Below, one piece after another: positions 7,887 through 34,911 of a stretch of DNA of 44,049 bases. Location: positions 1-44,049 of IMG/VR virus record IMGVR_UViG_3300033145_001836. One strand, 5' to 3'. The notes under the pieces are model-generated. The model did no database searches. It was not told the DNA's origin and worked only from the letters and a program-made list of their open reading frames with translations. The position numbers and the translations under genes were made by a program. Positions within the stretch are counted from its first letter, which is position 1, and each line of letters opens with the position of its first letter. Source of the stretch: a virus.

Positions 7887-7908
7887 AAACTTAGTAAGGA
7901 GATTCCTA

Positions 7909-17333: not shown

Positions 17334-20300
17334 TAGACTTTCTCCTCTTTTCTTTGCGTGGGGTTTTAAACAGAATAGGCATGGGAGTACCCTCTTCTAA
17401 AGCCTTTCCAACTCGTTTAATAGCCCCGCTCCCAGGAACCAAATGCCCTGGGTTTAAATAATACATTAACTGATTTTCTGCCCTCTTCTTATCATAAGCA
17501 TTATGTGAACTAAGGTAAGTATATAGGTTAATCATTATCCCTATTGCATGGGAAGATGAAGGAATAGGTCCCATTTGAAGAGGAGCTATAGACTTCTCCA
17601 CAATGGATGATGCTATTAACTGGGGAGAAAATCCTATCGAGGTAAGGTCGATGCCAGCTTTTTTAGCTATTTTTACCATCGAAGCCGTAACGGCAAGATG
17701 TCTTATAGCTCCAAATCTTGCCCTTTTTACTGGTAAGAAAGGTCCTTTAACAGGGTCAGCCCAAGAAGCTCTATTTTTAAACCCTCTTGATAACATTTCC
17801 CTCATGTATCCGAAGCTATAGTTAAGAGGCCACGACCAGAACTTAAATGCTATCCCACCAGCGGCTGTCTGTAGGATAGTAGGCATACCCCACTTGGAGT
17901 ATAGAAACTCACAGGTTAATCCGCCTAGGTTCATTTCGTTCTTTATCCTAGCCATCTCACTAGGGAAAAAAGGTTGCCCTCCTGGGGGAACTTCTCCTTT
18001 TATCCTTAAGGGGTCAGCATAAGGAATGCCTTTTTTTGGATGCCAGTATCTCGGATTTAGTATATAATCCGCCACCTCCCAGGCGGCTGCCTTCATTACC
18101 TTTGTAACATTCCAAAGATGACTGGCTGCCATAGGGGTTTGACCAATTTTTCCAATAGTGCTTGTAGGTAAATCTCCAGATAATTCATAAGCTCTTCCTT
18201 TAGACATCTTGTAGAACCATTGACCTTCCATAGCATCCTGCATCCATTGAGGAGTATCACGGAAGATAGCTTTCCTCATGCTGCTGCTTCGATAAAGCCC
18301 ATAGCCTAGGAGGGATTGGGTAATGTTTCTTGTCCCCATATCTAGCCTGTAAGAGATAAATGCAGAGTTCATTCTTGAACCATATAGGGCTTTAATCTCC
18401 CTCATATAATTAGGTCCTAACTCTCTACCAAACTTTTTAGCTACTATATTTATTACTTTACCTACGCTGACTCCACCAGGTCCTATTCTAAAAAGGCTAT
18501 TGATAGCTTCATCTGAAGAAAAGGTTTCACCTAAAAGCCCGTTCCTATAAAATGTTCTCAAGAACTTAACTGTTGGTTTTTCCAGTTCTTCTCCATAATT
18601 TTTAAGAAACGTATCGACTACATTTCTAGGCTCAGTTAAAAATACACCTTTTAAGGTAGACCTTGCTCCATCTATATAAGCTTGGAAAGGATTGTACTCC
18701 AATTCACCTGGAAGGGGTTCTCTTATCCTTTCCTTTGACACAGAAACTCTTCCTTTGGATAATCCTTCTTTTTCATACAACCCTATGTTGCCCTCTGTCA
18801 GCCTTGCCTTCTTCTGAGCAGGGGGAGAAAATTCATAAACCCGCCTGGAATAACCCTTAAGAGTCTTTGTTAGCTTCAAGCCTAGGTACTTCTCTACTCT
18901 ATTAAGCATTTTTATTAGCATATCTGTGCATCTTCTCATATCACTAAAGACTTCCTGGTGAGCTTTAGTAGGAAGAGTCTTGGGGTCAAAATTAGGATTA
19001 TTCAATGCTTCGGTGAGTCTTTTAAAAGATTTTACAGCAGGACCCTTTTTAAAAATAGCCTCTGTTACTTTAGCACCCATCTTAATCCCATCAGCATTAA
19101 GCCATTTTAGGGCTTCAAAATTCATCAGCTTAATTGAATCCTGTACCATACCCTCCTGCATAACTTTTCCTCTTATCCCTGGCATCATGGCAGGACCTAA
19201 ATTTAAACCCATCCCGTATTGGACAGGGGGGCTTATACCAGATATGATAGTACCCTTCCCTATCTGGGAAACATCTAAGGGAGCTCCAAAGTCCCTAAAT
19301 GTTTGTTTAAGAACCCTTCTTAGTTCTTCTATATAGTACTGGGCTTCTCCTGCCGATAAATCCTTAGCTGAACCCTTACCATAGATTCGCTCTAGTTGTT
19401 CAACATAGGCTTTATTAGCAGCGGGATACAGAGGACTTTTCTTACTAAAAGCCTTTTCCAAACCTTCTACTTTAGTAGTTAGATTATGAATAAGCCTTTT
19501 TTGTCTACCACTAGCCTTTATATAATCTGTGCTAATTTTTCCTTTCATCCCAGGGGGCATTCTTTCAAGTAAGCGTTTGGGACTTAACCCTTTGACTAAC
19601 GATGAGTATTCCTTTATCTTGGATAGGGTAAGTTTCGCCATTTCAGGATTGCCCTTCTCTCCACCTTCTACAAAGCTAAAGAGTTCCTTATTTAACTTTT
19701 CTGCCATTTTAGGGTCGTCAGCCATTTTTTCCCAGGCTTTTATCATTTTAGGAGCTATCTTCTCCATATCTTTTTGTCTTTTACTCATGGGTTTGAAGAA
19801 CTTCTTTGGTCCCCCAAGAGCTGCGTCAAAGACAGTACCTAAAACAAAGTTGAAGATTATTTCTTCCTTTGGTATCTCTTCCCCTCTTAAGGTTCTTACT
19901 AACCCCCCTGCTGTTGCTAGTGCTGTCCCACTTGCGATGCTCCTTACTGCCCTGGCTGTAGGATAGAAAGCTCCCCCAGTTCCGCCAACGGTTACACCGA
20001 AGATGGAATCATGGACTGTGCTTTTCACAAGTTCAATAGCATTGGGGTCTTTCTCCTTAACCTGCTTTGCGGCTTCATTAAGGAATCCGTAAACACCCCA
20101 GACAACTCCTTCATGAGCACCTGCTGCCACGGTTCTATGAACAAGGGTTCCTGTTCTCTTAGCAGTAATAGCGAGTTTAGATGCTGCTGCAAAAGTAGGT
20201 ATAATATTTAAACTAAGAGTTGTGAGTTTGAGAGCCGTAACGGTACCAGCTATTGAACCCGCTGCCTTAACTATGGCTCCCTCTAAACCCAGAGCTTTTT

Positions 20301-20586
20301 CCGTTTTTTCCTTTGCTATATCTGGAGCAATTAAGCCGAAAGTAGCTGCGGGGATATAACCTTCTAAAAACATTTCCCCCTTACCTAAGAAAGTTCCAAA
20401 GGGGGATAAGGTTTCTGGAGAAGCCTGGGCTCCCAACCTTGCTCTACCATAGTCCTCTAGATAATCAGTATCTTTAGGCTTAAGCTTAGAACTTTCTATC
20501 TCCCTGGGTTGAAGAGGAGCTTCTTTCTGCCTAGGAATCATGTCCTGAAACGGAATACTAAATCCTGTAGGTGGTCTAAATGCCAT
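17320..20586 (-). CDS. Very large late protein, probable ejection (internal virion) protein (1088 aa)
   Basis: The largest gene in the genome. The N-terminal third holds long Ala/Gly-rich hydrophobic stretches (about 105-250) that could enter membranes. The middle is helical and basic (KRLLERMPPGMKGKI). The C-terminus has further hydrophobic segments. No enzyme motif stands out. Size and place, last of several coiled-coil proteins and just before lysis genes, resemble the ejection-protein cluster of podoviruses such as T7 gp14-16. It would be packed in the capsid and injected to build a DNA channel. AAGGAGG precedes its ATG. Confidence 0.6.
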   Translation of the reverse strand: MAFRPPTGFSIPFQDMIPRQKEAPLQPREIESSKLKPKDTDYLEDYGRARLGAQASPETLSPFGTFLGKGEMFLEGYIPAATFGLIAPDIAKEKTEKALGLEGAIVKAAGSIAGTVTALKLTTLSLNIIPTFAAASKLAITAKRTGTLVHRTVAAGAHEGVVWGVYGFLNEAAKQVKEKDPNAIELVKSTVHDSIFGVTVGGTGGAFYPTARAVRSIASGTALATAGGLVRTLRGEEIPKEEIIFNFVLGTVFDAALGGPKKFFKPMSKRQKDMEKIAPKMIKAWEKMADDPKMAEKLNKELFSFVEGGEKGNPEMAKLTLSKIKEYSSLVKGLSPKRLLERMPPGMKGKISTDYIKASGRQKRLIHNLTTKVEGLEKAFSKKSPLYPAANKAYVEQLERIYGKGSAKDLSAGEAQYYIEELRRVLKQTFRDFGAPLDVSQIGKGTIISGISPPVQYGMGLNLGPAMMPGIRGKVMQEGMVQDSIKLMNFEALKWLNADGIKMGAKVTEAIFKKGPAVKSFKRLTEALNNPNFDPKTLPTKAHQEVFSDMRRCTDMLIKMLNRVEKYLGLKLTKTLKGYSRRVYEFSPPAQKKARLTEGNIGLYEKEGLSKGRVSVSKERIREPLPGELEYNPFQAYIDGARSTLKGVFLTEPRNVVDTFLKNYGEELEKPTVKFLRTFYRNGLLGETFSSDEAINSLFRIGPGGVSVGKVINIVAKKFGRELGPNYMREIKALYGSRMNSAFISYRLDMGTRNITQSLLGYGLYRSSSMRKAIFRDTPQWMQDAMEGQWFYKMSKGRAYELSGDLPTSTIGKIGQTPMAASHLWNVTKVMKAAAWEVADYILNPRYWHPKKGIPYADPLRIKGEVPPGGQPFFPSEMARIKNEMNLGGLTCEFLYSKWGMPTILQTAAGGIAFKFWSWPLNYSFGYMREMLSRGFKNRASWADPVKGPFLPVKRARFGAIRHLAVTASMVKIAKKAGIDLTSIGFSPQLIASSIVEKSIAPLQMGPIPSSSHAIGIMINLYTYLSSHNAYDKKRAENQLMYYLNPGHLVPGSGAIKRVGKALEEGTPMPILFKTPRKEKRRKSSVYF

Positions 20587-21632
20587 TAGTATCTACCTCC
20601 TTGATAGGGTGGGGTGTAACCAGCAGGAGGTTCTATTTGGTCCCTTTGAGCCTTCATAGAGTCGCTGAAGCTTATTTTACCTTGGTCTAGTTCCAGCATA
20701 GTGTTCATCAACCAATCCAGAGTGGCATTTCCTGTTTCAGCAACATTCATGTTTATATATCTATGGTAGGCAGGAAGATATTCTTCATTATAAGTTTTAA
20801 ACTTTCTCTTCTCCCAATCCTCATTACTTTCTCCATTTATTCTAAGAAGTTTCTGATACCAACTACGCTCAAGAAGCCCACTTTGTTCTAGTTCGCTCAT
20901 GTAACTAGGTAAATCAACATCTCCTTTACCCATAATCATGTCATTATACTGTCTGTAACTAAGTTCAGGATGGGCAAGTCTATATCCATTCCTCGCAGCA
21001 AGCATTGCTTTAGAGGCTTCCATAAGCATGGTCTTAACATCAAGAGCCGCTGTCCTTGAATCAGGAGAACCATTTTCAATTATAAAATTAGCAATTTCAG
21101 TAGGAGATGAATCTTCAGACATACCAGCTAGGAGTTCTTTGTCCTCCTTAGACATAGCTGTAATAAGGTTCATTTGGCTAAGTATCAAAGAAGCCTTATT
21201 AAAATTGCGGTTTCTTTCTGGAGTTAAAAGCCCAAAGTTGGGGTCTTTTTGCATAGCTAGAAGTGAACTTTTAGCAACATTTAGCTTTTTCTCTATTTGG
21301 TTTTGGAGCTTTGGATTTTCCGCAGCATTATAATATTGCTCAGACAATCTCCTATACTCATCTACCGTGGTTTCGTATTTGGCATTGAAAGCTATTGTTT
21401 GCTTGTCTAATTCGTCTCTAGTAGAATAAAAACCCGCAAGAGCCTCATTGTATGCCACATTTGACCCGACGGTTTTCTCTCTTATTGCTACTTCTCTTCC
21501 TCCTAGACCCACTTCTTGTTCACGTAGAGCCATTTCTTTTGTTCTCAGGTCGTAATCACGTTGAGCTATTATTACGTTAGCTATTTGAGGACCAGCTTTC
21601 GCCAATCCATGGAGGAACTCCCTCATGTTCAT
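20586..21632 (-). CDS. Coiled-coil late protein, probable internal virion protein (348 aa)
   Basis: Residues 20-60 contain repeating ALREQEVGLGGREVAIREK. Long helical parts follow. The N-terminus (REFLHGLAKAGPQIANVIIAQ) is amphipathic. Its stop and the ATG of the 1088-aa gene overlap (TAATG). This arrangement, a helical protein next to a giant hydrophobic one, suggests a partner in the ejection complex. GGAGGAG decides the start. Confidence 0.55.
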   Translation of the reverse strand: MNMREFLHGLAKAGPQIANVIIAQRDYDLRTKEMALREQEVGLGGREVAIREKTVGSNVAYNEALAGFYSTRDELDKQTIAFNAKYETTVDEYRRLSEQYYNAAENPKLQNQIEKKLNVAKSSLLAMQKDPNFGLLTPERNRNFNKASLILSQMNLITAMSKEDKELLAGMSEDSSPTEIANFIIENGSPDSRTAALDVKTMLMEASKAMLAARNGYRLAHPELSYRQYNDMIMGKGDVDLPSYMSELEQSGLLERSWYQKLLRINGESNEDWEKRKFKTYNEEYLPAYHRYINMNVAETGNATLDWLMNTMLELDQGKISFSDSMKAQRDQIEPPAGYTPPYQGGRY

Positions 21633-22093
21633 CTTTTCTCCTCCTCTTTCTTCCTTACATCCTCAGGAGATACTGTGTATTCATTTCCTGTATGGAAAGG
21701 AGCGATTCCTTCTTGTATTCCTATGTTAAGATTTTTCTTTGTCTTAACAGCCTTTGGGTAACTCTCCCTCATCCCAGGGAACTCTTCCATCTTAGACCTT
21801 TTGCCCTGGAATATATCGTAGTTATTAAACCTACCCGAAGCCTGCATTATTTCAAAAACTTCCTTATCTCCTTTACTCCCCTTAAAATCGCTGGCAGGTC
21901 TGCCACTTATAAGGGCAGCCGTGTTAATAGCTAGCTGGCGTCTTTCTCCTATTCTTTTGTAGTCCTTAATTTGAGCCTCAAGTAACTTATCCGCTGCACT
22001 TTGTTCTGGCTCGGAACTATCCGCAGTAAGAGCACTTAAAAAAGCAGAAGCTAGATAAGTAGTTAGTATTGCTGTCCCTGGGTCTATTGGCAT
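21629..22093 (-). CDS. Small late protein with N-terminal hydrophobic helix (154 aa)
   Basis: The start is ATG 22093, set by GAAGGAGG upstream; the frame is open for five further codons. An N-terminal hydrophobic/Ala-rich segment (GTAILTTYLASAFLSALTA) precedes a polar body with a predicted helix (AADKLLEAQIKDYKRIGERR). In podovirus layout a small membrane-active ejection protein often precedes the two large ones. That fits but is unproven. Confidence 0.55.
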   Translation of the reverse strand: MPIDPGTAILTTYLASAFLSALTADSSEPEQSAADKLLEAQIKDYKRIGERRQLAINTAALISGRPASDFKGSKGDKEVFEIMQASGRFNNYDIFQGKRSKMEEFPGMRESYPKAVKTKKNLNIGIQEGIAPFHTGNEYTVSPEDVRKKEEEKR

Positions 22094-22104
22094 TTTTACC
22101 TCCT

Positions 22105-23631
22105 TCAAACATATAATTCAGGCGGGATATATTCTTCTTCTTTTTCCCCCTCTTTCTTTTTCTTATCACGTTTAGCCTTCCGAAGCCAAGCAGGAAGACC
22201 ACTCCATACCTCTTCAGGGTCTTTACCAAGAGCATCAGGGTCTTCCATTATTACATCATAAATATAGTTACCAAAGTCTTTTTTCTGGTCATCTGTAAGC
22301 ATACTATAAGCAGGACTTTCTAATAAGCTTATTATCCCATTGAAGTGAACCTGGACCTCAGCTATGTCTATCTCAGAGGCTTTCAATTTTAACGATTCTA
22401 TTACTCGCTCGTTGCTTATATCATACTGCCTAGCACTCTCTGCTATTTGTGCGGTGGCTACAGCCATATCGGCAGTGTTCTTTATTTCTAACATATCCAC
22501 TTCATGCGTAAAAGCGTCTGCTTGAAGGTCTCTTATTCTTTCATCTGTTAAATCAAATTCCTCTTTAGCCCAAGCCAAAGTATCATTGAACTGGTCTCTA
22601 CTCCTCTCATCCGTCATATTATTGTTTCTTATAGTTTCTCCCAAAGTATCAACAGCTACTTTTCTTTCCCATGTATTCCTTTTCTCTTTAACATTCAATT
22701 CCTTATACATATAATGAAGGTTTTCTAGAAAATTAACCCTGGTCCAGGGTAACCCAGTTTTAGGGTCAACAGTAGAAGCCTCCATTAAATCAAACTCTTT
22801 TTCAAACTGCTCTACTGCATAGGGGTTACCTGTTTCTGGATTTATGGCTACCTTTTCCTCTAGCTTAAACAGCTTGAGCCACTTAGGTTCTCCTTCCCAG
22901 GTGTTAAACTTTTGGTTAGCTAAAAGCAGAGCCATTTGACCTGCTATCTGATTACTGGCTATTGTTCCTCGGCTTTCTATTTCTGCGGCTGATATTTTTT
23001 CCCTACTTTTTATTTCTGCCCCAGCTATATATTCCGCCGACCCTGTATAAGTCTCAGCTACGTCTTTCCTACCAGCTACTTCTATCTCAGCAACATCCCT
23101 AGCGGTTTTTCCACGGATTCTTTCTCTCTCCGTCTCTTTCTCACCTAGAGTTAAATCAGTTCTTGCCTCTAGTACTGCTATATCCCTTGCAGCTTTTGCT
23201 TGTATTTTAGCAATTTCTTTTTGCCCAGCAATCCCAGCTAAGGTTTCTGCACCTCCATATATACGTTCCTCTCTAGCCTGTTCATAACCCCCATATCTTC
23301 CAAGAACTTCCCTTTGAACATCACTTAACAAACCCATTTCTTTGAGCCTAACTTCTTCCGTCTTTTCTAACTGCCTTCTTGTAGTATCCCCAGAAGTAAG
23401 AACTCCTCGTCTTTGCATTCCTTTTTCTATCTCAGGCAAAGCTCTCAGCCTTTCGGCTTCTCCAAATTCAGATATGCTCTCTTTTGCAAAGGTCATTTCT
23501 TGTTCAGCTTCTGGAGATAAAACCCCCCCTCCCCTTTCACTGCTTTTCCTAATATCATTTAAGATAATATCTCTCAAATCGGGGGAGGAAATTTGGTCAA
23601 AGGTTAAACTTGTGGCTTTGGTCTTATTCAT
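22105..23631 (-). CDS. Ala/Glu/Arg-rich coiled-coil late protein (508 aa)
   Basis: Residues 120-260 consist of degenerate helical repeats (for example ARDIAVLEA, ARDVAEIEVAGRKDVAE, SAAEIESRG), predicted as long coiled coils. The N-terminus includes RRGVLTSGDTTRRQLEK, similar to motifs I have seen in structural proteins of podoviruses. The C-terminus is Lys/Glu-rich. It probably belongs to the virion's internal or tail-needle assembly. It overlaps the preceding 80-aa gene by 4 bases. Confidence 0.55.
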   Translation of the reverse strand: MNKTKATSLTFDQISSPDLRDIILNDIRKSSERGGGVLSPEAEQEMTFAKESISEFGEAERLRALPEIEKGMQRRGVLTSGDTTRRQLEKTEEVRLKEMGLLSDVQREVLGRYGGYEQAREERIYGGAETLAGIAGQKEIAKIQAKAARDIAVLEARTDLTLGEKETERERIRGKTARDVAEIEVAGRKDVAETYTGSAEYIAGAEIKSREKISAAEIESRGTIASNQIAGQMALLLANQKFNTWEGEPKWLKLFKLEEKVAINPETGNPYAVEQFEKEFDLMEASTVDPKTGLPWTRVNFLENLHYMYKELNVKEKRNTWERKVAVDTLGETIRNNNMTDERSRDQFNDTLAWAKEEFDLTDERIRDLQADAFTHEVDMLEIKNTADMAVATAQIAESARQYDISNERVIESLKLKASEIDIAEVQVHFNGIISLLESPAYSMLTDDQKKDFGNYIYDVIMEDPDALGKDPEEVWSGLPAWLRKAKRDKKKKEGEKEEEYIPPELYV

Positions 23632-23870
23632 TTCCTTTTCATCTCTTTAAGAGTTGTGTCTATTCTTATGACTATACCTTTAATTTCCTTTGTATCGGTT
23701 TTGAGCTCTTTTATGTCCTTATCTTGTTGATTGGCTTGGTATACTATCTTTTCATGTTCCTTACAGAAAGGATTATTGTTCCTCTTAGCTACAAGAGGAC
23801 TAAACTTCACTATTGCTACGATAACAGTAAACAAGCCAGTTATTACCACCCCAGCTATCCCATAATCCAT
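23628..23870 (-). CDS. Membrane anchor plus coiled coil (80 aa), possible holin/XhlA-like
   Basis: One transmembrane helix (GIAGVVITGLFTVIVAIVKF) is followed by a heptad-like coiled coil (DKDIKELKTDTKEIKGIVIR). Haemolysin XhlA-like and some spanin-like phage proteins show the reverse order, so the name is not certain. GAGGGGAG precedes the ATG. It could be a second lysis protein or an assembly anchor. Confidence 0.5.
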   Translation of the reverse strand: MDYGIAGVVITGLFTVIVAIVKFSPLVAKRNNNPFCKEHEKIVYQANQQDKDIKELKTDTKEIKGIVIRIDTTLKEMKRK

Positions 23871-24271
23871 TATTTTCTCCCCTCTAAAGTGAGAATAAGA
23901 GCTCCAGTGTCCCCAGAAGTAGCGGTTTTTGCTGTATTGCTGAGATTAACAATCCTTGTGGTTAAGGTATGCTCCGTAACTCTTCGGATGTTTGGCCACG
24001 AGACCTTAACAAAATAATAATACCATCCAGCAGAAGCCCTTCCGTCGCTCTCAGAAAAAGCGTGCATTCTAGCTACATCATCATTTTCATCCAACAACTC
24101 AACCAGCCAGGCTCGTTTATCCGCACTCTTTATTCTTACCACCTCTATAGTACCTCTACCATCGGCTCTCCACCCGTCAAGAGTTTCCGACTCTGAACCC
24201 TGGGCAGCGATGGCACTAGTGAAGTCCTCAGCTTGAGTGCTTGAAACCATGTAGTTTTTCTCAACTCCCAT
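23870..24271 (-). CDS. Hypothetical structural-type protein (133 aa)
   Basis: A strand-rich protein without signal peptide, unlike its neighbours on one side. It contains WRADGRGTIEVVRIKSADKR and WPNIRRVTEHTLTTRIVNL. No family recognised. AAGGAG lies before the ATG. It shares one base with the next gene's start. Confidence 0.6.
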   Translation of the reverse strand: MGVEKNYMVSSTQAEDFTSAIAAQGSESETLDGWRADGRGTIEVVRIKSADKRAWLVELLDENDDVARMHAFSESDGRASAGWYYYFVKVSWPNIRRVTEHTLTTRIVNLSNTAKTATSGDTGALILTLEGRK

Positions 24272-24309
24272 TTTGTTATCTCCTTTTTAAACCCATCTTT
24301 TTAGCTTAT

Positions 24310-25080
24310 CTATCTTCTAATTAAGTCATCGGTTCGTAGACTTGCCTTTATAGTAGTATTATAGCCATTGGTTGCTCCTCCAGTTAAAACAAGATAACCA
24401 AAAGTACAACTAACAGGAAATGGTATAGTCCATTCTGTTATTGTGGAGCTTATTGTTGTGCTATCTATCCTAGCAACCATGAAGTTATTATCTGCATCTA
24501 TTGAACCTCCCCAAGCAACCGCATTGACTGATATAGAATCTCCATCTTGGGTCGTATGAAAGTGTACACCTGTAAGTGGTTCTACTTCGAAATACAAGGT
24601 GGAATCCACTCCTGTACCAGCTACATATAAGCTATCTTTATACAAGCTACTAGGAAACCAACTATCCCATCTATATAGAGGTCTTACATAAGGTCGCTTA
24701 GATATAGGATATCTATCATTATTCATAACTTGATAGGTGGTGGTAGTATCCCTGTTACTATAGGTCTTAGCATCAGACCCTGTGGAATCAGCCCTTAGGA
24801 TTGCGTAATAAGTAGTATTAGGAATAAGCCCTGTAGCCGACCCTGAAGTAGCCGTATCGGCAAGTATAAATTCGGACCCTCCACCAGAGGAATCATTTGG
24901 GTCAGTAGAACATACTAGTATTAACGAATCCGTCTTTGCGGGGTCAGGGTTACTTATGCTAAATGTGATAGTTGTGTTTGTTTTACTTGACTGTGATATT
25001 GTGCTTACATTAGCCGCAGCCCATAAATATAGACTACCAACAACGAGCAATAGTAAATTAACGATAATGAATCTTCTCAT
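24310..25080 (-). CDS. Secreted-type protein with fibronectin-III-like repeat (256 aa)
   Basis: The N-terminus has the Sec signal layout: MRRF, a hydrophobic core (IIVNLLLLVVGSLYLW), then AAAN as a possible cleavage site near residue 23. Residues 25-115 (ATGLIPNTTYYAILRADS) match a fibronectin type III fold, whose hallmark is the xGLxPxTxYYxxxxA strand. The rest is Ser/Thr-rich and strand-like. It is in the fibre region of the late operon, where signal peptides are not expected. AAAGGGAGG precedes the ATG. Confidence 0.65.
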   Translation of the reverse strand: MRRFIIVNLLLLVVGSLYLWAAANVSTISQSSKTNTTITFSISNPDPAKTDSLILVCSTDPNDSSGGGSEFILADTATSGSATGLIPNTTYYAILRADSTGSDAKTYSNRDTTTTYQVMNNDRYPISKRPYVRPLYRWDSWFPSSLYKDSLYVAGTGVDSTLYFEVEPLTGVHFHTTQDGDSISVNAVAWGGSIDADNNFMVARIDSTTISSTITEWTIPFPVSCTFGYLVLTGGATNGYNTTIKASLRTDDLIRR

Positions 25081-25092
25081 TTAAACCTCCCT

Positions 25093-25686
25093 TTAAGGAT
25101 GTACCCTGTTTGCTGTGTATGTAAAACCCATGCTGACTAAGGCGGGTTCAGATAAAGCCACACCCGAATCAACCGTTACTGCACTAATTTCCATAATTAT
25201 TATCTCCATATCATTAAACTCCTCTGCTGCAATAGTTATGCTACTTGTGAAATAGACAATTTGGTCTGTTGTTGAGGCGGAATCATAACTGTCTTGTACG
25301 GCATCTGTGACTTCTCCAGAGTTGCAATTCTCACCTGAGAGGTCTACAACAAGGTTTTTAACTTGCCACTTGACCGTTTTAGCACTCTCGTCATTCCCTG
25401 TTGTACTTCTTGTCCAAAGGATATTGATTGCTATATCCCCTGAAGCATAATCACCAGGTACACCAAATTTATAATATGCAGCGTCGGTGTTTACAGTAAA
25501 TTCGTAGACATTTGTTATGCCATAGTTGTTTATTGCTGGTGGATGGGTTACGTTCTTACCTAATTGTGAGGCTGGTATACGAACATTTTTGGTATAAGTA
25601 CCATAACCTACGCCATTTACGTGCATTTGTGCAACGGCTATCTTTACAGTAAATATTATTAATAAAAGTATTAATAGTTTTTTCAT
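25093..25686 (-). CDS. Secreted-type beta-rich protein (197 aa)
   Basis: MKKLLILLLIIFTVKIAVAQ is a textbook Sec signal peptide with an AVA/Q cleavage site near residue 19. The mature part is strand-rich with paired acidic residues and no catalytic motif. It may be a fibre, a surface adhesin or a protein acting in the periplasm. It lies between two other genes with hydrophobic N-termini. Confidence 0.6.
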   Translation of the reverse strand: MKKLLILLLIIFTVKIAVAQMHVNGVGYGTYTKNVRIPASQLGKNVTHPPAINNYGITNVYEFTVNTDAAYYKFGVPGDYASGDIAINILWTRSTTGNDESAKTVKWQVKNLVVDLSGENCNSGEVTDAVQDSYDSASTTDQIVYFTSSITIAAEEFNDMEIIIMEISAVTVDSGVALSEPALVSMGFTYTANRVHP

Positions 25687-25740
25687 TTTTATAATCCCTG
25701 TTTAGTGATAAGGATTGCTGTTATGAGCCTAAATTTCATA

Positions 25741-26343
25741 TTACGGCACTCCCACATAAGTTGACATCGGATTGAAGAAAATCTTATCCTCAGCAACCAC
25801 CTCGCCAATGATGACAGCCGTGTCGCCTGTACCCGATGGTCTTACAATAGTTGGTTGTCCAGCAGTTGTGCCTACATAAACATCTGTGCTATCTTCGGCA
25901 ACAGTTATAGTTGTCCACGGTGTAAAGTAAACATAACCCCTATGGAGAAATTTACCATAAGCATTTGCCTGTACGCCATTTCGCTGAACACAAATTACCT
26001 TGACTTTTGCAGTTGTCAGAACATCAGCATCGCCGAGAGCAAATTCTTGGTCACCATCACGATAGCAAACCTCACCAAATTTGATATTCTCATCAGCTTT
26101 CCATATAACAGGGTCGCCCGTAAAAGTACTGTCAGCCATTCCCCTGGGGTCGCCGTGACCACCAACGAAAGCACTGTCAACTGTAGCTGTTTCCATTGTA
26201 GTAGTACCCGTGAGCACGGTATCCTTAAGCAACTCCGTTATATTGTCATAAACTCCTATAATCTCTGCTTTGGGAAACACATCAAACAGGAAAATACTAA
26301 CAAAAACCAAACCAATAATAATTATCAAAAGTTTATTTCTCAT
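25741..26343 (-). CDS. Signal/anchor plus phage decoration-like domain (200 aa)
   Basis: Residues 1-25 (LLIIIIGLVFVSIFLFDVF) form a signal peptide or membrane anchor without a clear A-x-A site. Residues 75-200 (VIWKADENIKFGEVCYRDGD ... GTGDTAVIIGEVVAEDKIFF followed by NP) match the C-terminal pattern of small phage head-fibre/decoration domains that end 'GxxxxADxIyFNPS'. A virion-type domain behind a signal peptide is unusual. Its ATG overlaps the preceding stop by 4 bases. Confidence 0.6.
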   Translation of the reverse strand: MRNKLLIIIIGLVFVSIFLFDVFPKAEIIGVYDNITELLKDTVLTGTTTMETATVDSAFVGGHGDPRGMADSTFTGDPVIWKADENIKFGEVCYRDGDQEFALGDADVLTTAKVKVICVQRNGVQANAYGKFLHRGYVYFTPWTTITVAEDSTDVYVGTTAGQPTIVRPSGTGDTAVIIGEVVAEDKIFFNPMSTYVGVP

Positions 26344-26624
26344 TCCTCCCCCCTGGTTAAATCATTAAACCAATATAATTCTTCCATAACATCAACAAAC
26401 ATTACCAACGCAATACATAAAGCACCGATAATAGGGATACAAATATACGGATTCCCATCAATCTGTTGTCCACCGCTCATGGTTATTATGCAACATATCC
26501 CTAACACAATCATCCTCCATAATATAGAAAGCAACTTACTTAGGACACTTTTCTCCTCTTGCCTTCCTTCTACCTTTTTGTCCAGTTTTTCTTCTATAAC
26601 TGCTCTTGTATGGACCACTTCCAT
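26340..26624 (-). CDS. Two-helix membrane protein (94 aa), possible holin
   Basis: A polar, Glu/Lys-rich start is followed by two hydrophobic segments (about 37-50 and 63-78) and an acidic tail. GTG 26627 or ATG 26624 are both possible, with GAGG upstream. Its first 89 bases overlap the 38-aa gene in another frame. Two-TM topology fits class II holins, but its place inside the fibre cluster is not typical. Confidence 0.5.
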   Translation of the reverse strand: MEVVHTRAVIEEKLDKKVEGRQEEKSVLSKLLSILWRMIVLGICCIITMSGGQQIDGNPYICIPIIGALCIALVMFVDVMEELYWFNDLTRGEE

Positions 26625-26652
26625 CACGTTTACCTCGTTTAGTTCTACTCAT
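26536..26652 (-). CDS. Very basic small protein (38 aa)
   Basis: AAGGAG lies 8 bases before the ATG at 26652. The peptide (RGKRDGSGPYKSSYRRKTGQ ... KARGEKCPK) is nearly half Lys/Arg and resembles tiny basic phage proteins with the RDGxGPY pattern. It may bind nucleic acid. It overlaps the 94-aa membrane gene out of frame by 89 bases. Confidence 0.5.
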   Translation of the reverse strand: MSRTKRGKRDGSGPYKSSYRRKTGQKGRRKARGEKCPK

Positions 26653-26672
26653 TTTTACTCCTTCTCGACCTT

Positions 26673-27590
26673 TTAATAAGTTTCCCAAGTACCAGTCTGG
26701 CTCACAACCTGCCACGAAGTACCATCTAAAGCAACCAGGGTAACAGTTTCTCCTATTTGCCCAGCAGCACAATAATTAGCCTGAGCATCAGCAGTAGCAT
26801 AGACTATATCATCGCTACCTCCAGGAAGTATTATCAATGAGTCAGTATCAGTAGTAACAAAGGTATAAGTAAGTCCCGCCACAGCGGTAGGTAAGGTTAT
26901 TTCAACAGCAGCACTTGCTGCTCCATTGGTAATTAGACCCCCTGATGGGATAACAACTGATGTGAGTGTGCTATCCGTTGCAACGGTAAAGATAGTTGTG
27001 CTCCCACTAATACTACCACTTGCTTTTATGCTCCCAGTAACATCTAATGCCACTCCTGGACTTGTGTTATTTATACCAAAGTAGCCCGTAGAGAAATCCC
27101 CGAAGATACCATTAGTACTATAAAACCCAGTAGTAATATAAAGCTTATGGCTAGAGGTGGTATTGTCGTAACCCGCCATGTAACCCAGGTAAAGACAACC
27201 TATACCTGTGGTATGGCTACTCCCCGCAAACATTCCTAATCCAGTAACTCCATACCCTGTGGTTAGGGAGCGTAGGGCATAATCACCATAGGCAGTATTT
27301 CCTGTACCTGTGGTCAGGGAACCTAAGGTACTCGTTCCGCTTAACTCGTTATCTACACCATAGGCTAGCCTTAAGCCAAGGGTTAATAAAGATAAAACAA
27401 AAGTTGTGTAAATTAACTTCTTTAACATTTTGATTCCTCCTTCCCTAAAAGTACGTATTATTTTTTTGTCTGGTATTGGGATTAAATGCTCTTCATATAC
27501 AAGACCGTTTAAACCGTATTTACGTACGTGATATTTTTTTCCATCTATAATTCGTATAGTTGCTGATGGTATTTCTTTTAAATTGTTCAT
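26673..27590 (-). CDS. Fibre/adhesin-like protein with two possible starts (305 or 251 aa)
   Basis: The long form starts at ATG 27590 (GGGGGG ribosome site). An in-frame ATG at 27428 has a better site (AAGGAGG) and begins a Sec signal peptide (KKLIYTTFVLSLLTLGLRLAYG). The mature part shows NTAYGDYALRSLTTGYG, LGYMAGYDN and SHKLYIT, a repeat type found in trimeric adhesins and phage tail fibres. The C-terminus (GETVTLVALDGTSWQVVSQT, then GTW) is common at phage fibre ends. It probably binds the host surface; the signal peptide would be internal in the long form. Confidence 0.65.
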   Translation of the reverse strand: MNNLKEIPSATIRIIDGKKYHVRKYGLNGLVYEEHLIPIPDKKIIRTFREGGIKMLKKLIYTTFVLSLLTLGLRLAYGVDNELSGTSTLGSLTTGTGNTAYGDYALRSLTTGYGVTGLGMFAGSSHTTGIGCLYLGYMAGYDNTTSSHKLYITTGFYSTNGIFGDFSTGYFGINNTSPGVALDVTGSIKASGSISGSTTIFTVATDSTLTSVVIPSGGLITNGAASAAVEITLPTAVAGLTYTFVTTDTDSLIILPGGSDDIVYATADAQANYCAAGQIGETVTLVALDGTSWQVVSQTGTWETY

Positions 27591-27592
27591 TA

Positions 27593-28447
27593 TTATTCCC
27601 CCCAAACTTGAACATACTCAACATAAGCATGACTGTCGCCTGTATCAATGCATTGAGCACCAATAGCTAATTGCCATACGCTACTTGGAACATTGGTACT
27701 ATGTGTAGCCCTGAGCGTGCCATCAATGTAGAATTTTACATCGGAAGCTGTTATTATAATTTCAAAATCATACCATGTGCCACTGGTTATGTATGCTGAT
27801 AAGTCAGTGCTCTCAAGAGTAGTACCATCCGAAGTACAAGCATATGGTTTGTGGTCTGTAGCTTTAACAACGATAGTGGCTACCTCAGAATTGGCTAAAT
27901 AAAAATCAATAACCATTCCCAATGTTCTTTCATTTCCAACGAAACCTATTCCCGCAATAGTATCATCTCCAAAAGTAAGCTCTGCATGTGTCTTGAAATG
28001 TAAGGTTGTCACAGTATCTTTTATTGAAAACACTACTTTGTCCCTCGTATCGGCTATTGCATCATCACCATCAGTTTGACCAGTACAGCTTAAGTACCCT
28101 GCTGGAGCACCACCAGTATCATTTATGACCTCGACAGCTCCCATTCCTGTATCTAGAACGTTCCAGAATGTTGTATCAGGAGCACCATCATTAACAACAG
28201 TGTTGAAATAATCCTGAAATCCAGGGAACACTCCTATACCGAGTAATGACTCCTCTTTATCAGATAGCAGCGATAATCCGCTTATAGCATCCGACAGAGC
28301 CTCAAGACTATCAGTAGTATTATCAAAGGTAAAGTTACCATCTTTATGAAGAATATCCTGAAGGCTCTTTCCTGTAGGAGCACTAGTTATAGCCCCTGTT
28401 ATTAACCCTTTTATATAAGCCTCAAGATTCTCATACCCTATGCTCAT
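27593..28447 (-). CDS. LamG/concanavalin-like lectin protein B (284 aa)
   Basis: The N-terminus MSIGYENLEAYIKGLI, GKSLQDIL and TDSLEAL is typical of phage structural fibres. Residues 85-284 have the jelly-roll pattern of LamG-like lectins (WYDFEIIITASDVKFYIDG, TLRATHSTNVPS, YVQVWGE). It is a paralogue of the gene at 28892-29593, sharing the MSIGYENL start and the C-terminal 60 residues. It is likely a receptor-binding or head-fibre protein. Its ATG overlaps the stop of the frameshifted small gene (ATGA). Confidence 0.7.
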   Translation of the reverse strand: MSIGYENLEAYIKGLITGAITSAPTGKSLQDILHKDGNFTFDNTTDSLEALSDAISGLSLLSDKEESLLGIGVFPGFQDYFNTVVNDGAPDTTFWNVLDTGMGAVEVINDTGGAPAGYLSCTGQTDGDDAIADTRDKVVFSIKDTVTTLHFKTHAELTFGDDTIAGIGFVGNERTLGMVIDFYLANSEVATIVVKATDHKPYACTSDGTTLESTDLSAYITSGTWYDFEIIITASDVKFYIDGTLRATHSTNVPSSVWQLAIGAQCIDTGDSHAYVEYVQVWGE

Positions 28448-28603
28448 TTTCTTTTCTTTCCTTTTTTCCTTTTAAGCTTTCCAGTTGGCTTCCATCCGAG
28501 GTCTATTCCTCTTAGTAAACTAATAGCTTTCTTAGCCCTGCTTAACCTTCCACTTGCCACCTTTTTGATGAAGTACCTTGCTACCACTTCTCCTATATGG
28601 CAT
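28444..28603 (-). pseudogene. Small basic protein split by a +1 frameshift (about 53 aa when joined)
   Basis: ATG 28603, one base after the preceding stop, encodes MPYRRSGSKVLHQKGGKWKV then KQG and TAA. In the +1 frame the reading continues KKAISLLRGIDLGWKPTGKL and a Lys-rich tail to TGA at 28446-28444, which overlaps the next ATG. Only the joined product fills the gap exactly, and it resembles small phage proteins with a WxVK(Q) strand followed by a LLxGxxxGWKPTGK helix. Either a programmed shift at GGC-TAA, a disabled gene or a sequencing error. Confidence 0.45.
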
Positions 28604-28604
28604 G

Positions 28605-28892
28605 TTATTCTTTCCTCTTTCTGTTGAGGGACTCAAAACCTCCTGAACCTTCTAGCCTCCCCAACCTTTTAAGCTTTCCTAAAATAACACAAGGCTTTTC
28701 TCTATGAGCAAGTTCCTCTAAAACTCCAAACATTTGTTCATCAATTAAATCCATTATTATAGGACTATATCTTGCCTGAAGATAACTCTGTATACTTCCC
28801 TTAAAGGTTCTATTTTCCCTCTCCTCAACAATCCCTTTCAAAACCTCATCTTGGTCATCATTTAAAGTTATTCTTATTTCATAAGTATTCAT
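28605..28892 (-). CDS. Hypothetical protein (95 aa)
   Basis: The ATG overlaps the stop of the lectin-like gene A (TAATGA). A strand (TYEIRITLNDDQDEVL) then helices, with a basic C-terminus. It recalls ribbon-helix-helix or small chaperone folds, neither convincingly. Its place between two lectin-like paralogues suggests a fibre-related role. Confidence 0.55.
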   Translation of the reverse strand: MNTYEIRITLNDDQDEVLKGIVEERENRTFKGSIQSYLQARYSPIIMDLIDEQMFGVLEELAHREKPCVILGKLKRLGRLEGSGGFESLNRKRKE

Positions 28893-29593
28893 TATTCTGT
28901 CCAGACGTGTACGTATTGTAGCTTTAAATCACTCTGTACACCGTTAGTATTCTTAGCCCCAGCAAAGAAACTCATCACTCCACTAGGAACCCTAGTACTA
29001 TGGGTGGCTCTTAAAGAACCATTTATATAAAGCTTAACATTAGTAGCCGTAAGAACTACAAGGTAGGTTATTTCTGTGTTCTCCGTGAAATAGCTACTGA
29101 TGGTAGTAGCCTGAAGGGTAGTTCCATCATCAGTACAAAACCTAACAATATCATTATCTACATGTATACCTGCACTCCAATTAGTCCCCCCATCGTAGCT
29201 ATCCGCTGTAGTTACTGCTGCTTTACCAAATCCTATAGCATATTCCCCTTCTGCATCTACAATATTTAATTTACTTTCCCATCTCAAGCTACTAACATCA
29301 CCATTAACCTTAGCTATATTCCAAGTCTTAAGCCCGTTGGTGTTAATAGTACTATCATTAGTAGCCCCTGTACCAGCTAATACCCTACAATAACCTAAAG
29401 CTTTCCCGCTCATCTCTACCGTTACGGTTCCATCATTATCCTCCACCACAGCCCAATTAGAAGTATTAGGGTCGCCTCCTTCCGCCACATCATTAAACCA
29501 CTCCATTAATCCCTTCTGACCTCTACATCCTAATAGGGATTTTTCCTTCTTAGTAAAAAGGCTGGTTGTAAGATTTTCGTACCCTATACTCAT
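28892..29593 (-). CDS. LamG/concanavalin-like lectin protein A (233 aa)
   Basis: The protein starts MSIGYENL like its paralogue at 27593-28447 but lacks the GKSLQDIL segment. The second half follows the same jelly-roll: CTDDGTTLQATTISSYF, VKLYINGSLRATHSTRVPSG, YVHVWTE. It is likely a receptor-binding or decoration protein. AAGAAGG precedes the ATG, and a 29-bp dyad lies in the leader just upstream. Confidence 0.7.
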   Translation of the reverse strand: MSIGYENLTTSLFTKKEKSLLGCRGQKGLMEWFNDVAEGGDPNTSNWAVVEDNDGTVTVEMSGKALGYCRVLAGTGATNDSTINTNGLKTWNIAKVNGDVSSLRWESKLNIVDAEGEYAIGFGKAAVTTADSYDGGTNWSAGIHVDNDIVRFCTDDGTTLQATTISSYFTENTEITYLVVLTATNVKLYINGSLRATHSTRVPSGVMSFFAGAKNTNGVQSDLKLQYVHVWTE

Positions 29594-29617
29594 GGATTAA
29601 CCTTCTTTTTTAACTTT

Positions 29618-29646
29618 TTTAACTGTTTACCTGGTGAATAGTTAAA
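29618..29646. promoter_or_regulatory. 29-bp dyad, copy 3 (14-1-14)
   Basis: Left arm TTTAACTGTTTACC, centre T, right arm GGTGAATAGTTAAA. It sits in the 57-base gap before lectin-like gene A in the late operon. This copy has the closest match to the consensus. Confidence 0.7.
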
Positions 29647-29650
29647 ACTC

Positions 29651-30001
29651 CTAAGTAACCGTTTGCCCAAAGACAAACACGTTTACCTTACTAGCAGTAT
29701 CCGCAACAGCCTGCAAAGAATCATTTTCCGTATCTAAAATAAGCTCAATATCATTAATAGTAACTGAAGCTTCAGAATCAAGACTTTTTTTATAAATCTG
29801 ATTCCCAGTTCCTGCGGTTCCTACGGCTCCACCACCTGTTGCAGGTACTAAATAAAGAGTAACCGTAATTGCGGAGCTATGAGTATTGTGTATATAAATC
29901 CCATCAATATGGGTTTTGGTGTTTGCTGCATTTGTAACATAAGCCGCAGCACTATCCGTGAGCTGGATAGTAGTATTAAGCCAAGCAAAAGTAACAGCCA
30001 T
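29651..30001 (-). CDS. Small virion-type beta-sandwich protein (116 aa)
   Basis: Strands IDGIYIHNTHSSAITVTLYL and VNVFVFGQTVT match a common small phage structural protein, in which an Ig-like sandwich has the NTxxxxxTVTLYLVP strand. Its role is unknown; minor head or tail component fits the neighbours. AAAGGAGG precedes the ATG. Confidence 0.65.
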   Translation of the reverse strand: MAVTFAWLNTTIQLTDSAAAYVTNAANTKTHIDGIYIHNTHSSAITVTLYLVPATGGGAVGTAGTGNQIYKKSLDSEASVTINDIELILDTENDSLQAVADTASKVNVFVFGQTVT

Positions 30002-30234
30002 TACATACCTCCTTTCCTAGACAACATTTTTAAAAAGGCATCATCAAAAGACCAACCTGTTATTCCGCTAGACACCGCTGGGCTATCCGTACCATCATGA
30101 GTATGCCCTGTAGTTCCGTTAAAAGCATTGTTAAAAGCCGTTCTTATTAAACCAAAGTTATAAGTAACATTTTCAGCACTTAAACCTAGTCCGCTAGATA
30201 TAGACCTTAACGTACCTATGTTAATAGCTGCCAC
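30001..30234 (-). CDS. Small tail-fibre-like protein with THTHDG-type motif (77 aa, GTG start)
   Basis: Helix FGLIRTAFNNAFNG is followed by TTGHTHDGTDSPAV, a His-rich turn common in fibre hinge regions of phages. The GTG start follows AGGAGG. It is probably a small structural or fibre-attachment protein. Confidence 0.65.
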   Translation of the reverse strand: MAAINIGTLRSISSGLGLSAENVTYNFGLIRTAFNNAFNGTTGHTHDGTDSPAVSSGITGWSFDDAFLKMLSRKGGM

Positions 30235-31841
30235 TATCTTAGCCTCCTATATTGAAAAACCAACTGTGCTCCTCCATACGAGATACTATCTGTATCTTCA
30301 TTGCCACTGTTCTCTATAATTAACTCAATGAAAGCTCCCTTGCCATTTATAGACATTTTATAATCCAGCATTCCTTTATCCGCCCAAATAGTAGAATCCC
30401 AAACTTGTGTTTGGCTGGGGTCAGAAGAGCCGTCCCAAAAAGGAACATTACCTTCCTGTTTTAGAGTTAAATCCGAGATTGGTCCTCTATATCTTCCAGC
30501 GATATTGTAAGCAAAGGTAGTAGAGCCATTCACATTCTGATGTAACAAAACATAAGCAGTTCGGAAACTCTTAGGTATCCCAGGACCTCCAGGAACAATA
30601 GGTCCTAAATGAATGGTACTTTTTATATCCTTCCCTGTGCCACTGCTATCATCATCCTTGAAAACATAGTCTGGTTCCATAATATAAATCTTACCACCAG
30701 AGCCTCCTCTATAAACACTTTCCGAACCATCACTAGCTATGATGTTTTCCAAACAAGCTGCCTCGAATCCGTCTCCTTCATACCAACCATTCCAGACATG
30801 CCTAACCGTGCCGTTTTCATCTATGCCAGAGAGTGCAAGGTTATAAGCAAAACCTGTATTGTAGGTTGAAGAACCACTTGTCTTAGCTCCCCATAAGATT
30901 TCGTTCCTTCTACGGTCATGAACCCCCTCAATTTCATCGTAATTATCAACATCCCTGAACTTCTTTTCAATATTGTCGGATATCTTTCTGACCTCAAGCC
31001 CATCTTCTACCTGCCTTCTTAGTATACCTTCATAAAATCCTTCCTGATTGACAAACCTTATTATGTTTCCTTCAGTTACAATCGACCAATGAGAAGTAAT
31101 CCCGCTACCTATGGCTACCTTTATCTGCTCCAAAGTATCACTTTCAGGGTCTCCCTCCGTATTTATATATATGCTGTTCTTCTTACCTACAACTAAGAAA
31201 CTCCATGCGGAACCCATCCCTGTAACTGGCTCCATATCTCTACCATCATCATAAGAAAAATAACTACTAACGCCCCAAGTAGTAGGGTCAAGGGAGTTAG
31301 AAGCATATACACGGGTAGGATAGTCATCACAACCAGAAGCCATTAGCCTATTCCCGTAGACGAATAGGTATCTAGGAACATTACTTGATACAAAATCATC
31401 AGCAAAATTAGTCAGCAACGAGCTAACATCGGAACCGTCGTACTTTAGAAAATCAACACCATTAGCCAGGATAGCAATACTATTCCCGCTACCATCATTA
31501 AAGGTAACGACACTTGGTTTGTTGCTACTAGTTAATCCGCCTATTTGGATTAAAAGGTTATCCGAACCCATTTTATACCACTTCTTGCCTATTGTTACGA
31601 GGACTTCCCTGATAATCCCTGCACCATAAGGTCTATTATATTGATGTATAGAGGTTATATCCCCAGTAGGTCCCGTGCTGTTTAGTAAAGTAGAACCTCC
31701 TCTTGTATAAGCTATTCCTCTGGAATCAATGTGCATATTAATAAGCCTAAAAGCCTCATCCTTAGCAATAGACAGAACATTATCGGTATACCTGCATCCG
31801 CCCCTAAGAGGCGGTAGTAGCATTGTTGACTTTCGTAACAT
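30234..31841 (-). CDS. Tail/stabilisation protein (P22 gp10- or T7 gp12-like, 535 aa)
   Basis: The start is ATG 31841 with AAAAGG; the upstream GTG at 31865 lacks a site. A strand-rich protein with YLFVYGNRLMASGCDDYPTR and VYAS, AWSFLVVGKKNSIYINTEGD and NGWYEGDGFEAACL, typical of propeller-like tail proteins. It follows the adaptor gene, as P22 gp10 follows gp4 and T7 gp12 follows gp11. It should close the portal channel and form the short tail. The first residues overlap the 54-aa gene. Confidence 0.65.
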   Translation of the reverse strand: MLRKSTMLLPPLRGGCRYTDNVLSIAKDEAFRLINMHIDSRGIAYTRGGSTLLNSTGPTGDITSIHQYNRPYGAGIIREVLVTIGKKWYKMGSDNLLIQIGGLTSSNKPSVVTFNDGSGNSIAILANGVDFLKYDGSDVSSLLTNFADDFVSSNVPRYLFVYGNRLMASGCDDYPTRVYASNSLDPTTWGVSSYFSYDDGRDMEPVTGMGSAWSFLVVGKKNSIYINTEGDPESDTLEQIKVAIGSGITSHWSIVTEGNIIRFVNQEGFYEGILRRQVEDGLEVRKISDNIEKKFRDVDNYDEIEGVHDRRRNEILWGAKTSGSSTYNTGFAYNLALSGIDENGTVRHVWNGWYEGDGFEAACLENIIASDGSESVYRGGSGGKIYIMEPDYVFKDDDSSGTGKDIKSTIHLGPIVPGGPGIPKSFRTAYVLLHQNVNGSTTFAYNIAGRYRGPISDLTLKQEGNVPFWDGSSDPSQTQVWDSTIWADKGMLDYKMSINGKGAFIELIIENSGNEDTDSISYGGAQLVFQYRRLR

Positions 31842-31968
31842 TTCTATCCTTTTTTCCTTGCTCACTTAAAATAGCTAATCTCCGCTCTAGTTCCTGTTTA
31901 GAAATTCCTCTTTCTTTTAGGACAGGGGAATCCTTTAGAAAACCTTTATCTAAAAACGTGTTTGACAT
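31804..31968 (-). CDS. Small hypothetical protein (54 aa) overlapping its neighbours
   Basis: AGGAG lies 5 bases before the ATG at 31968. The product (MSNTFLDKGFLKDS ... KQELERRLAILSEQGKKD) has a predicted helix and is polar. It overlaps the adaptor gene by 23 bases and the stabilisation gene by 38 bases in different frames. It could also be only a translational bridge between them. Confidence 0.5.
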   Translation of the reverse strand: MSNTFLDKGFLKDSPVLKERGISKQELERRLAILSEQGKKDRNVTKVNNATTAS

Positions 31969-32770
31969 GGTTGCTCCTATGCGTCTGGGTTCTACCAAGT
32001 ATTCCATTTAAATCATTCCATATTTCTTTGGCTCTTCTTTCCAAGTCAGTAATAGGGTCATCCTCATCCAGTCTCCAGTCTATCCCTGCTTCTAGGTGTA
32101 TAAGATTCTGAAACCTCGAACTCATAGGAACCATTATGGATACATCTGTAGGGGTAGTAATCCAGGTCCCACAAGTAAACACCCCAGTAGAACCCACAAA
32201 GTCTGTAATTTCATGGAACTCCCCACAGATATCCACCATATACATTCCATTATACCAGTCATCTACGGACACAATACTCCCCTGAGTCGCTGTTGATGTC
32301 AATGTTACCGTGGTGCTAGATGTGTCATCTGGGGTAGCTTGGAACAATCTCTTAGGACTAGTGGGATAGTAAACTCTTATAGTACCACTGCTTGTTTTTT
32401 CTGGGACTCCTAACTTACCATTACGGTAATAGTATTTAAACCCAGAAGGAGAATAATTAATATGCCAAAAGCGGTTTTCAAAATGCAAGGGTTCAGTGTC
32501 AACAGGACTATTAGCCCCAGCCGTAATATCCTCGACCAAAGCCACCCTATCTACACCAAGAGGCATAGTGTATTCAAGGCTACCATCTAAAGCAATATCA
32601 TAATAAGTACAAAAAAACCCAGGTCGGATGTTCAAAATACGGGAACAAATCATATCTACAGCGTCATTAATATACCTCAACACATAAGTATCTATTGTAG
32701 GACCCCTGGATTCATGTTCCCCTATATGTCTTTTAGTTCTATCTAGTAATTCGCTTAAATGATATAACAT
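31946..32770 (-). CDS. Head-tail adaptor, tail tubular protein A-like (274 aa)
   Basis: The N-terminal helix has YINDAVDMICSRILNIRPGF, followed by strands (FKYYYRNGKLGVPEKTSSGT) and a C-terminal helix (LIHLEAGIDWRLDEDDPITD). This fits the adaptor proteins (P22 gp4, T7 gp11 type) that dock a tail onto the portal. The position before the stabilisation protein supports it. Confidence 0.65.
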   Translation of the reverse strand: MLYHLSELLDRTKRHIGEHESRGPTIDTYVLRYINDAVDMICSRILNIRPGFFCTYYDIALDGSLEYTMPLGVDRVALVEDITAGANSPVDTEPLHFENRFWHINYSPSGFKYYYRNGKLGVPEKTSSGTIRVYYPTSPKRLFQATPDDTSSTTVTLTSTATQGSIVSVDDWYNGMYMVDICGEFHEITDFVGSTGVFTCGTWITTPTDVSIMVPMSSRFQNLIHLEAGIDWRLDEDDPITDLERRAKEIWNDLNGILGRTQTHRSNHVKHVFR

Positions 32771-33519: not shown

Positions 33520-34911
33520 TTAAGCACTCCTCTTCTTTCCTTGACAAGGACCAATCCATACACTAAAGGGCTTGGAAGCTGCATTCCCTCTTATGTCGAT
33601 TAAATAATTATCCCATTGACCAATCAGGGAACCAATCTTATCCGTGGTACTGGCGTCATCTTCAAAGAACAGCAATATTCTATCCGCCGTAAGAGTACAT
33701 ATTCCAGGAGTACAAATACTCCCCCTCGTGAACTGGTTGGTAACAACCTTAGTCCATGTAGTATCGCTTACACTACAAACCACTACTTTACCTACATCAT
33801 TAGTATTGGCGTCATCCTCATAAGCTATGGCTACTTTTCCACCATCAAGGTTTGTTATCCGAGGAGTCAGGGCAGCAGTAGTGGTTAGTTCTAATTCGGT
33901 TTTCTTTGTAGGAGTTGTGGTACTTATAGTAGCCATATTTATATGGAGCTTGGTAGCATCAATCCATGTAAAGGCTACCCTATCTTTACCTATAGCAACA
34001 CAGTCAATCCCAGTAGCTGCTCCAGTAGCTCCAGCCATACTAACCTCATCACCACAAACAATAGCTTTAGCTGTACTTACTGTAGCACAACACATGGTTA
34101 TGGGGTCATCGGCATCTCCTCCAGCTTGATAAACAACAGCTACATCTCCTGTAGTATGACTACATATAGAAAGTTCCTTGGTATCATCTCCACCATCGAA
34201 CTCTACCGCTGTCCCACCAGTTGAGACAACCATAGTAGCAGCGACATAATTAACCGCTATTAACAACCCCTTACCATCTGCATCTAGGGAATAAGCTACA
34301 GCTAGGGTCAAGGTATTAGCAAGACAAATAGCGGTTCCCGAAAGAGCATCCAATGTATCCGCTACTACTTCCTTCTCATCCCCCTGGGTTATAGTAGTTC
34401 CATCCACGGAACCCATTCTTACACAAAGATAACTAGAACCTCCACTATCATTATAAGAGATAGCATATAAAGTAGAAGAAACCTTACATATATCAGCTCC
34501 TTTGGTTTCAGCATTATTAACAGTTACAGCAGAACCCCAGGTTATGGCTCCACTGGAAGCCACAGTCCCTGCTATGGCATATAACTTAGTTCCTACAGTG
34601 TAAATCCCTACAACTAAGGAACTTGTTAAACTTACAACTTTTTGTAAACTTGTACTATTAGTAGTAACAGGAGCAGCCTTAGCCACGGGGAAGTTAAACC
34701 CCTTTACTACTATATCTACATCCTCAATATAGGTTCCCTCAGAATCCGTAGTAGCTACCAAGGGTATGTTTTTATAAGGAGAAGATGGTCTCTTCAAAAG
34801 GGGCTCATCGGCTGTAGAAGGAGTGGTCCCCACTATTAAGGTCCCCCTGAGCTTCTCTAACCCTATCCCGCCTATACTATTATACCTACCTGTATGTGTC
34901 ATGTATCTCAT
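33520..34911 (-). CDS. Propeller-like repeat protein A (463 aa), probable capsid spike or fibre
   Basis: Residues 85-420 repeat a 45-50-residue unit of the form LYAISYNDSGGSSYLCVRMG ... ITQGDEKEV, the D-rich blade pattern of beta-propellers. The N-terminus (STADEPLLKRPSSPY) and LIDIRGNAASKPF near the C-terminus are shared with the larger paralogue upstream. Lying just after the major capsid gene, the pair may decorate or crown the capsid, or form receptor-binding spikes. AAGGGAG precedes the ATG. Confidence 0.65.
   Translation of the reverse strand: MRYMTHTGRYNSIGGIGLEKLRGTLIVGTTPSTADEPLLKRPSSPYKNIPLVATTDSEGTYIEDVDIVVKGFNFPVAKAAPVTTNSTSLQKVVSLTSSLVVGIYTVGTKLYAIAGTVASSGAITWGSAVTVNNAETKGADICKVSSTLYAISYNDSGGSSYLCVRMGSVDGTTITQGDEKEVVADTLDALSGTAICLANTLTLAVAYSLDADGKGLLIAVNYVAATMVVSTGGTAVEFDGGDDTKELSICSHTTGDVAVVYQAGGDADDPITMCCATVSTAKAIVCGDEVSMAGATGAATGIDCVAIGKDRVAFTWIDATKLHINMATISTTTPTKKTELELTTTAALTPRITNLDGGKVAIAYEDDANTNDVGKVVVCSVSDTTWTKVVTNQFTRGSICTPGICTLTADRILLFFEDDASTTDKIGSLIGQWDNYLIDIRGNAASKPFSVWIGPCQGKKRSA

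Follow-up and report, generated by a model that had tools for sequence, protein, structure and literature searches.

Predicted Sec leaders and anchors on fibre and decoration domains of virion type in a late-gene run of a tailed phage

Introduction

In tailed phages, fibres and decorations are regarded as products of the cytoplasm. The Llp protein of T5 is a small lipoprotein made early. Cor or Llp of virulent phages keeps their progeny from adsorbing to debris, and in small Escherichia coli siphoviruses such factors are encoded at the receptor-binding protein locus (PMC11990801). A survey of phage DGRs took the lack of signal peptides on phage target proteins as an argument for the phage origin of those proteins (PMC6199706).

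Here, we describe a run of late genes beside fibre genes whose products are predicted to be exported to the envelope, where T5 Llp and T1 Cor also act. Llp and Cor deny the receptor to progeny and relatives; here the blocking agent would be virion-type domains. Unlike Llp, the candidates are four late, non-lipoprotein products of 197 to 256 aa with fibre or decoration bodies. Since they are not small lipoproteins, we did not file them as Llp, and the comparison concerns the mode of action only. Phage proteins directed to the envelope are already known, but we know of no described phage cassette, apart from the one in this single genome, that joins leaders to virion domains, and no precedent for leader-bearing tailed-phage fibres was found in the literature searched.

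Genomic context of the late operon

The window (the whole stretch of DNA analysed, 44,049 bases) corresponds to the IMG/VR virus record IMGVR_UViG_3300033145_001836. Its minus strand carries the genes for terminase, portal, capsid, and tail and, at the end of this series, a peptidase M15 gene that is probably the endolysin. The portal and major capsid proteins show a distant likeness to those of Microbacterium phage Shocker, and the portal also to those of Arthrobacter phages and a Silvanigrella phage. The Silvanigrella phage (L021) encodes a lipoprotein-like protein (MLKKCLIVCAALLMLSSCGSK) at 6008-6487 on its plus strand. A search of the phage collection with positions 20000-32000 gave no near match. 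The sole close relative of the window was contig L004 (capsid 64% and tail protein 58% identical), which stops just before the run formed by genes 26673 to 24310. No integrase was recognised among the window ORFs (part of the genes scanned). Elsewhere, a single protein combines a uracil-DNA-glycosylase domain with a family A DNA polymerase and the 3'-5' exonuclease of the latter (Pfam; 12626-14983, plus strand), and a 422-aa protein (11082-12350, plus strand) has by eye a ParB-like N terminus and a DNA methyltransferase-like C terminus. After the capsid gene, two adjacent large proteins (33520-34911 and 34927-36624, minus strand) share, by eye, related repeat-rich sequence, and both have apparent relatives in L004.

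The run lies on the minus strand among the late genes, between fibre genes and lysis genes. Genes are named here by their lower coordinate, and the features of the region are as follows.

27593-28447 and 28892-29593 (span 27593..29593), minus strand: leaderless LamG-type fibre genes directly preceding the run; Laminin_G_3 below the Pfam cut-off
27429..27590, minus strand: in-frame 54-codon upstream extension of 26673, with ATG at 27590; open frame running into the leader
26673..27428, minus strand: fibre/spike-type protein, short form of 251 aa from the internal ATG at 27428; leader MLKKLIYTTFVLSLLTLGLRLAYG followed by V; Shine-Dalgarno AAGGAGG
26340..26624, minus strand: 94-aa protein with two hydrophobic segments, from its sequence holin-like or a membrane partner
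25741..26343, minus strand: decoration/fibre-tip-type protein with an apparent N-terminal signal anchor (MRNKLLIIIIGLVFVSIFLF...); matches to phrog_563 and the immuto fibre
25689..25739, minus strand: 16-codon ORF (MKFRLITAILITKQGL), read from the sequence, ending 2 bases before 25093
25093..25686, minus strand: virion-type protein, beta-sandwich, carrying a Sec leader of cleavable type, MKKLLILLLIIFTVKIAVA followed by Q; from the leader rule, relatives, and AF2/Foldseek
24310..25080, minus strand: 256-aa protein with Sec leader MRRFIIVNLLLLVVGSLYLWAAA followed by N and a beta-rich-looking body of no assigned family; leader rule, Shine-Dalgarno GGGAGG
23628..23870, minus strand: holin/XhlA-like protein with a hydrophobic N terminus, in lysis context; phrog_937 "hemolysin," E 0.004

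The two LamG-type fibre proteins are paralogues (33% identical) with a common N terminus, MSIGYENL, which may be their virion attachment; 28892 has a relative in L004 (75% identical), and the N terminus also occurs in that contig, as MSIGSEEL. Tiny, strongly basic ORFs (28444-28587 and 26536-26652, minus strand) also lie among the fibre genes.

The ORFs listed in the initial annotation lie where it had placed them, and their starts are credibly placed. Strong Shine-Dalgarno sites precede 24310 and the internal ATG of 26673, and the start of 25741 overlaps the stop of 26340 as ATGA. The 16-codon ORF could be a translational-coupling ORF or a leader remnant. Only 2 bases separate the upstream ATG of 26673 from the gene before it, and omitting the extension leaves a 165-base gap in an otherwise compact region; the extension has no significant family match in Pfam. 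The arrangement of the frame suggests that 26673 may give two products, a short and a long form, and in the latter the hydrophobic segment would be internal and could anchor the protein in the membrane.

Leaders cluster in one late-gene run

Leaders were defined by a 10-residue core free of charged residues, preceded by at least one K or R and no D or E. Among the 47 window genes tested, this rule selected exactly 24310, 25093, 25741, and the internal ATG of 26673, all with an n-region of +2 and with core hydropathies of 3.33, 3.50, 3.64, and 2.41, respectively. None of the other late genes of the window has such a leader; 23628 and 40844 have a hydrophobic N terminus only, without the basic n-region. 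A basic n-region, an h-region of about 10 to 15 residues, and small residues at -3 and -1, the marks of Sec export and signal peptidase I, were found in 24310, 25093, and the short form of 26673, with plausible cleavage sites at AAA before N24, AVA before Q20, and AYG before V25, respectively. In 25741 the h-region is strong but no A-x-A-type site follows, and the single-sequence AF2 model gave a helix at residues 2 to 45 (mean pLDDT about 86 for residues 1 to 20, lower beyond). Because of the missing site and this extended predicted helix, its N terminus looks like an uncleaved signal anchor. The earlier claim of four Sec-type leaders therefore holds for the basic n-region and hydrophobic core of all four, but not for cleavability, which 25741 appears to lack.

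A lipobox with a +1 cysteine is absent from all four proteins, and a reading as lipoproteins (SPase II) was rejected. An origin of the leaders by duplication was also dropped, since the four leader DNAs are dissimilar on inspection (by eye, without an alignment statistic).

With a similar rule, 10 of 266 shadow ORFs passed, as did 6 of 375 genes of at least 100 aa in 13 comparison loci, some of which overlap or derive from one phage. The window value of 4/39, to which 25741 was added by hand because the greedy gene caller had taken an overlapping antisense ORF, differs from 6/375 with a Fisher p of 0.009, calculated post hoc. That antisense frame (25855-26676, plus strand, 273 aa) may cause automated annotation to miss 25741 likewise. 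The position of all four leaders within one six-gene run out of 47 genes has a p of 0.002, also post hoc. With 26340 and its two hydrophobic segments included, five of the six genes in the run are envelope-directed by sequence; 26340 had no significant match to families or phage proteins.

Hydrophobic N termini exist on virion proteins, and P22 gp7 has a leader that is removed. The four products might accordingly be ordinary virion proteins whose N-terminal helices stay in the particle, for instance trimerising or inserting into a membrane during DNA entry. Every body with relatives looks virion-type, as this would predict; however, the n-, h-, and c-regions of three leaders follow the classical pattern, including small residues at -3 and -1, and no relative has such a helix, so that we regard this explanation as unlikely.

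Three bodies resemble leaderless virion-type proteins

The 25093 protein has full-length relatives, about 50% identical over the whole body, in five distinct phage contigs (L002/L011, L003/L016, L012, L013, and L014/L015). All five are leaderless and in late-gene settings: near capsid or decoration genes in L003 and L013 (with LamG genes nearby in the latter), adjoining a small decoration-like gene and a tail-type gene in L012, and upstream of a terminase in L014. They begin near or after the end of the window leader, which appears as extra front sequence in the alignment, and upstream of them an in-frame stop is close by and no hydrophobic stretch is present. Judged from these alignments, the window copy appears to have gained its leader. 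In L002, a protein with a strong Sec leader (7443-8270, plus strand) is encoded upstream of the leaderless relative, from which a single fibre-like gene separates it.

The bodies of 25741 and 26673 resemble parts of longer proteins of the Flavobacterium phage immuto, from genes annotated as tail fibre and tail spike. The 25741 body matched the virion structural proteins of phrog_563 (E 2.6e-4) and is 31% identical to the C-terminal ca. 137 residues of the 578-aa immuto tail fibre. It thus corresponds to the distal end of a leaderless fibre, the proximal part being absent and an N-terminal anchor standing in its place. A weak similarity to the decoration-like gene of L012 was also seen (27%, E 3e-4 for a single comparison). 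The 26673 body is 35% identical over 158 aa to an internal segment of the leaderless, 595-aa immuto tail spike (QQO92085.1), whereas in the window this segment is a separate, leader-bearing protein of 251 aa. None of the 43 immuto late proteins examined carries a leader, and a plasmid search with the 26673 body found nothing.

Virion fibre or decoration homology was thus found for 25741, 26673, and, by synteny, 25093. For 24310, no relatives appeared in the collections searched and no homology to virion proteins was found. The initial annotation had spoken of fibronectin-like domains; Pfam gave no fn3 match in 24310 or in its isolated N-terminal region at E values up to 10 and does not back this assignment. 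The proposal that virion-type bodies are sent to the envelope is therefore sustained by leaderless phage relatives for three of the four proteins, but not for 24310. The structure prediction suggested as a check gave, besides the N-terminal helix of 25741, a beta-sandwich for 25093 (AF2, pLDDT 63.5, low to moderate confidence), but the single-sequence model of the 25741 body (pLDDT 36) was too poor for a structure search. Foldseek matches of 25093 to viral capsid and fibre-tip domains were weak (TM below 0.5 for most) and point to a beta-sandwich of viral type only.

Because the relatives of the 25093, 25741, and 26673 bodies are leaderless, the leaders look like additions in this lineage. A search for the same cassette in related phages had been proposed; viral scans with 24310, 25741, a 1088-aa protein, the tail protein 30234, and LamG matched only L004, which ends before the run, and no cassette-bearing relative was found. 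A genome scan with 30234 gave one short match (36 residues, E 4e-5 among candidates only).

Possible roles of the exported domains

Taken together, leaders and relatives point to virion-type binding modules that this phage probably sends into the host envelope, and we consider it likely that at least three of the four leader proteins are exported. The late-gene block would put Sec leaders or anchors on fibre and decoration domains, taking the 25093 domain whole and, for 25741 and 26673, part of a longer fibre or spike. Rather than being assembled in the cytoplasm, the products would go to the host envelope; their signals point to the periplasm or the cell surface as destination, and to a lasting anchor for 25741.

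The purpose is harder to judge. Superinfection block, altered adhesion, and pick-up outside the cytoplasm had all been put forward, and the sequence cannot separate them, although adhesion is the least favoured, since no integrase was recognised and the genes lie in the late operon next to lysis genes. Our preferred reading, with a probability of roughly 0.4, is that the exported domains would occupy, on the envelope and debris of the dying cell, the receptor or surface-glycan sites bound by the phage's own fibres. Progeny would be spared loss by re-adsorption and latecomers excluded. We favour this role because 25741 and 26673 are partial and the run directly follows the fibre genes, a position like that of receptor-blocking factors in other phages (PMC11990801). 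With only part of a fibre or spike present, these bodies would be free to bind, without the attachment end of the immuto proteins; the neighbouring fibres 27593 and 28892 have the MSIGYENL N terminus in common. A point against is that, with L004 ending before the run, no cassette-bearing relative was found in which leader conservation could be seen. Another is the difference from Llp, an early lipoprotein, since the products here are late and lack a lipobox.

The main rival to this blocking of receptor sites is that the proteins decorate virions after lysis. They would remain in the periplasm or at the membrane until the cell opens and then attach to completed capsids or tails, an arrangement that might suit outer fibres that are slow to fold, or harmful or unstable in the cytoplasm. 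The body relatives lie among virion genes or are annotated as fibre or spike, capsid decorations attach to a surface exposed on the outside and might be the last parts added, and lysis-type genes are nearby. However, 25741 is apparently membrane-anchored, its body lacks the virion-proximal part of the immuto fibre, and no tailed phage has been described as doing so, to our knowledge and in the literature searched; we find it rather unlikely.

Less probable still is a modification of the envelope or surface for other ends, such as altered adhesion or aggregation of the infected cell, the capture of the host's own glycans, or an aid to lysis together with 26340. The extra small membrane protein in the run and the holin-like 23628 near it fit this idea, as does the leader-bearing L002 protein near a leaderless 25093 relative. 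Yet none of the bodies gave a match to an enzymatic, toxin, or lysis domain, and long-term host conversion is unlikely given that no integrase was recognised.

Returning to receptor-site blocking, the broader proposal that the free or anchored fibre and decoration domains of this lytic tailed phage are self-decoys on the host envelope, or else virion coats added after leaving the cytoplasm, has in our estimate slightly less than an even chance. If true, Sec leaders on such domains would show how a virion gene can become an envelope effector, and virion homologues with leaders could be sought in uncultivated phages as candidate receptor-blocking factors.
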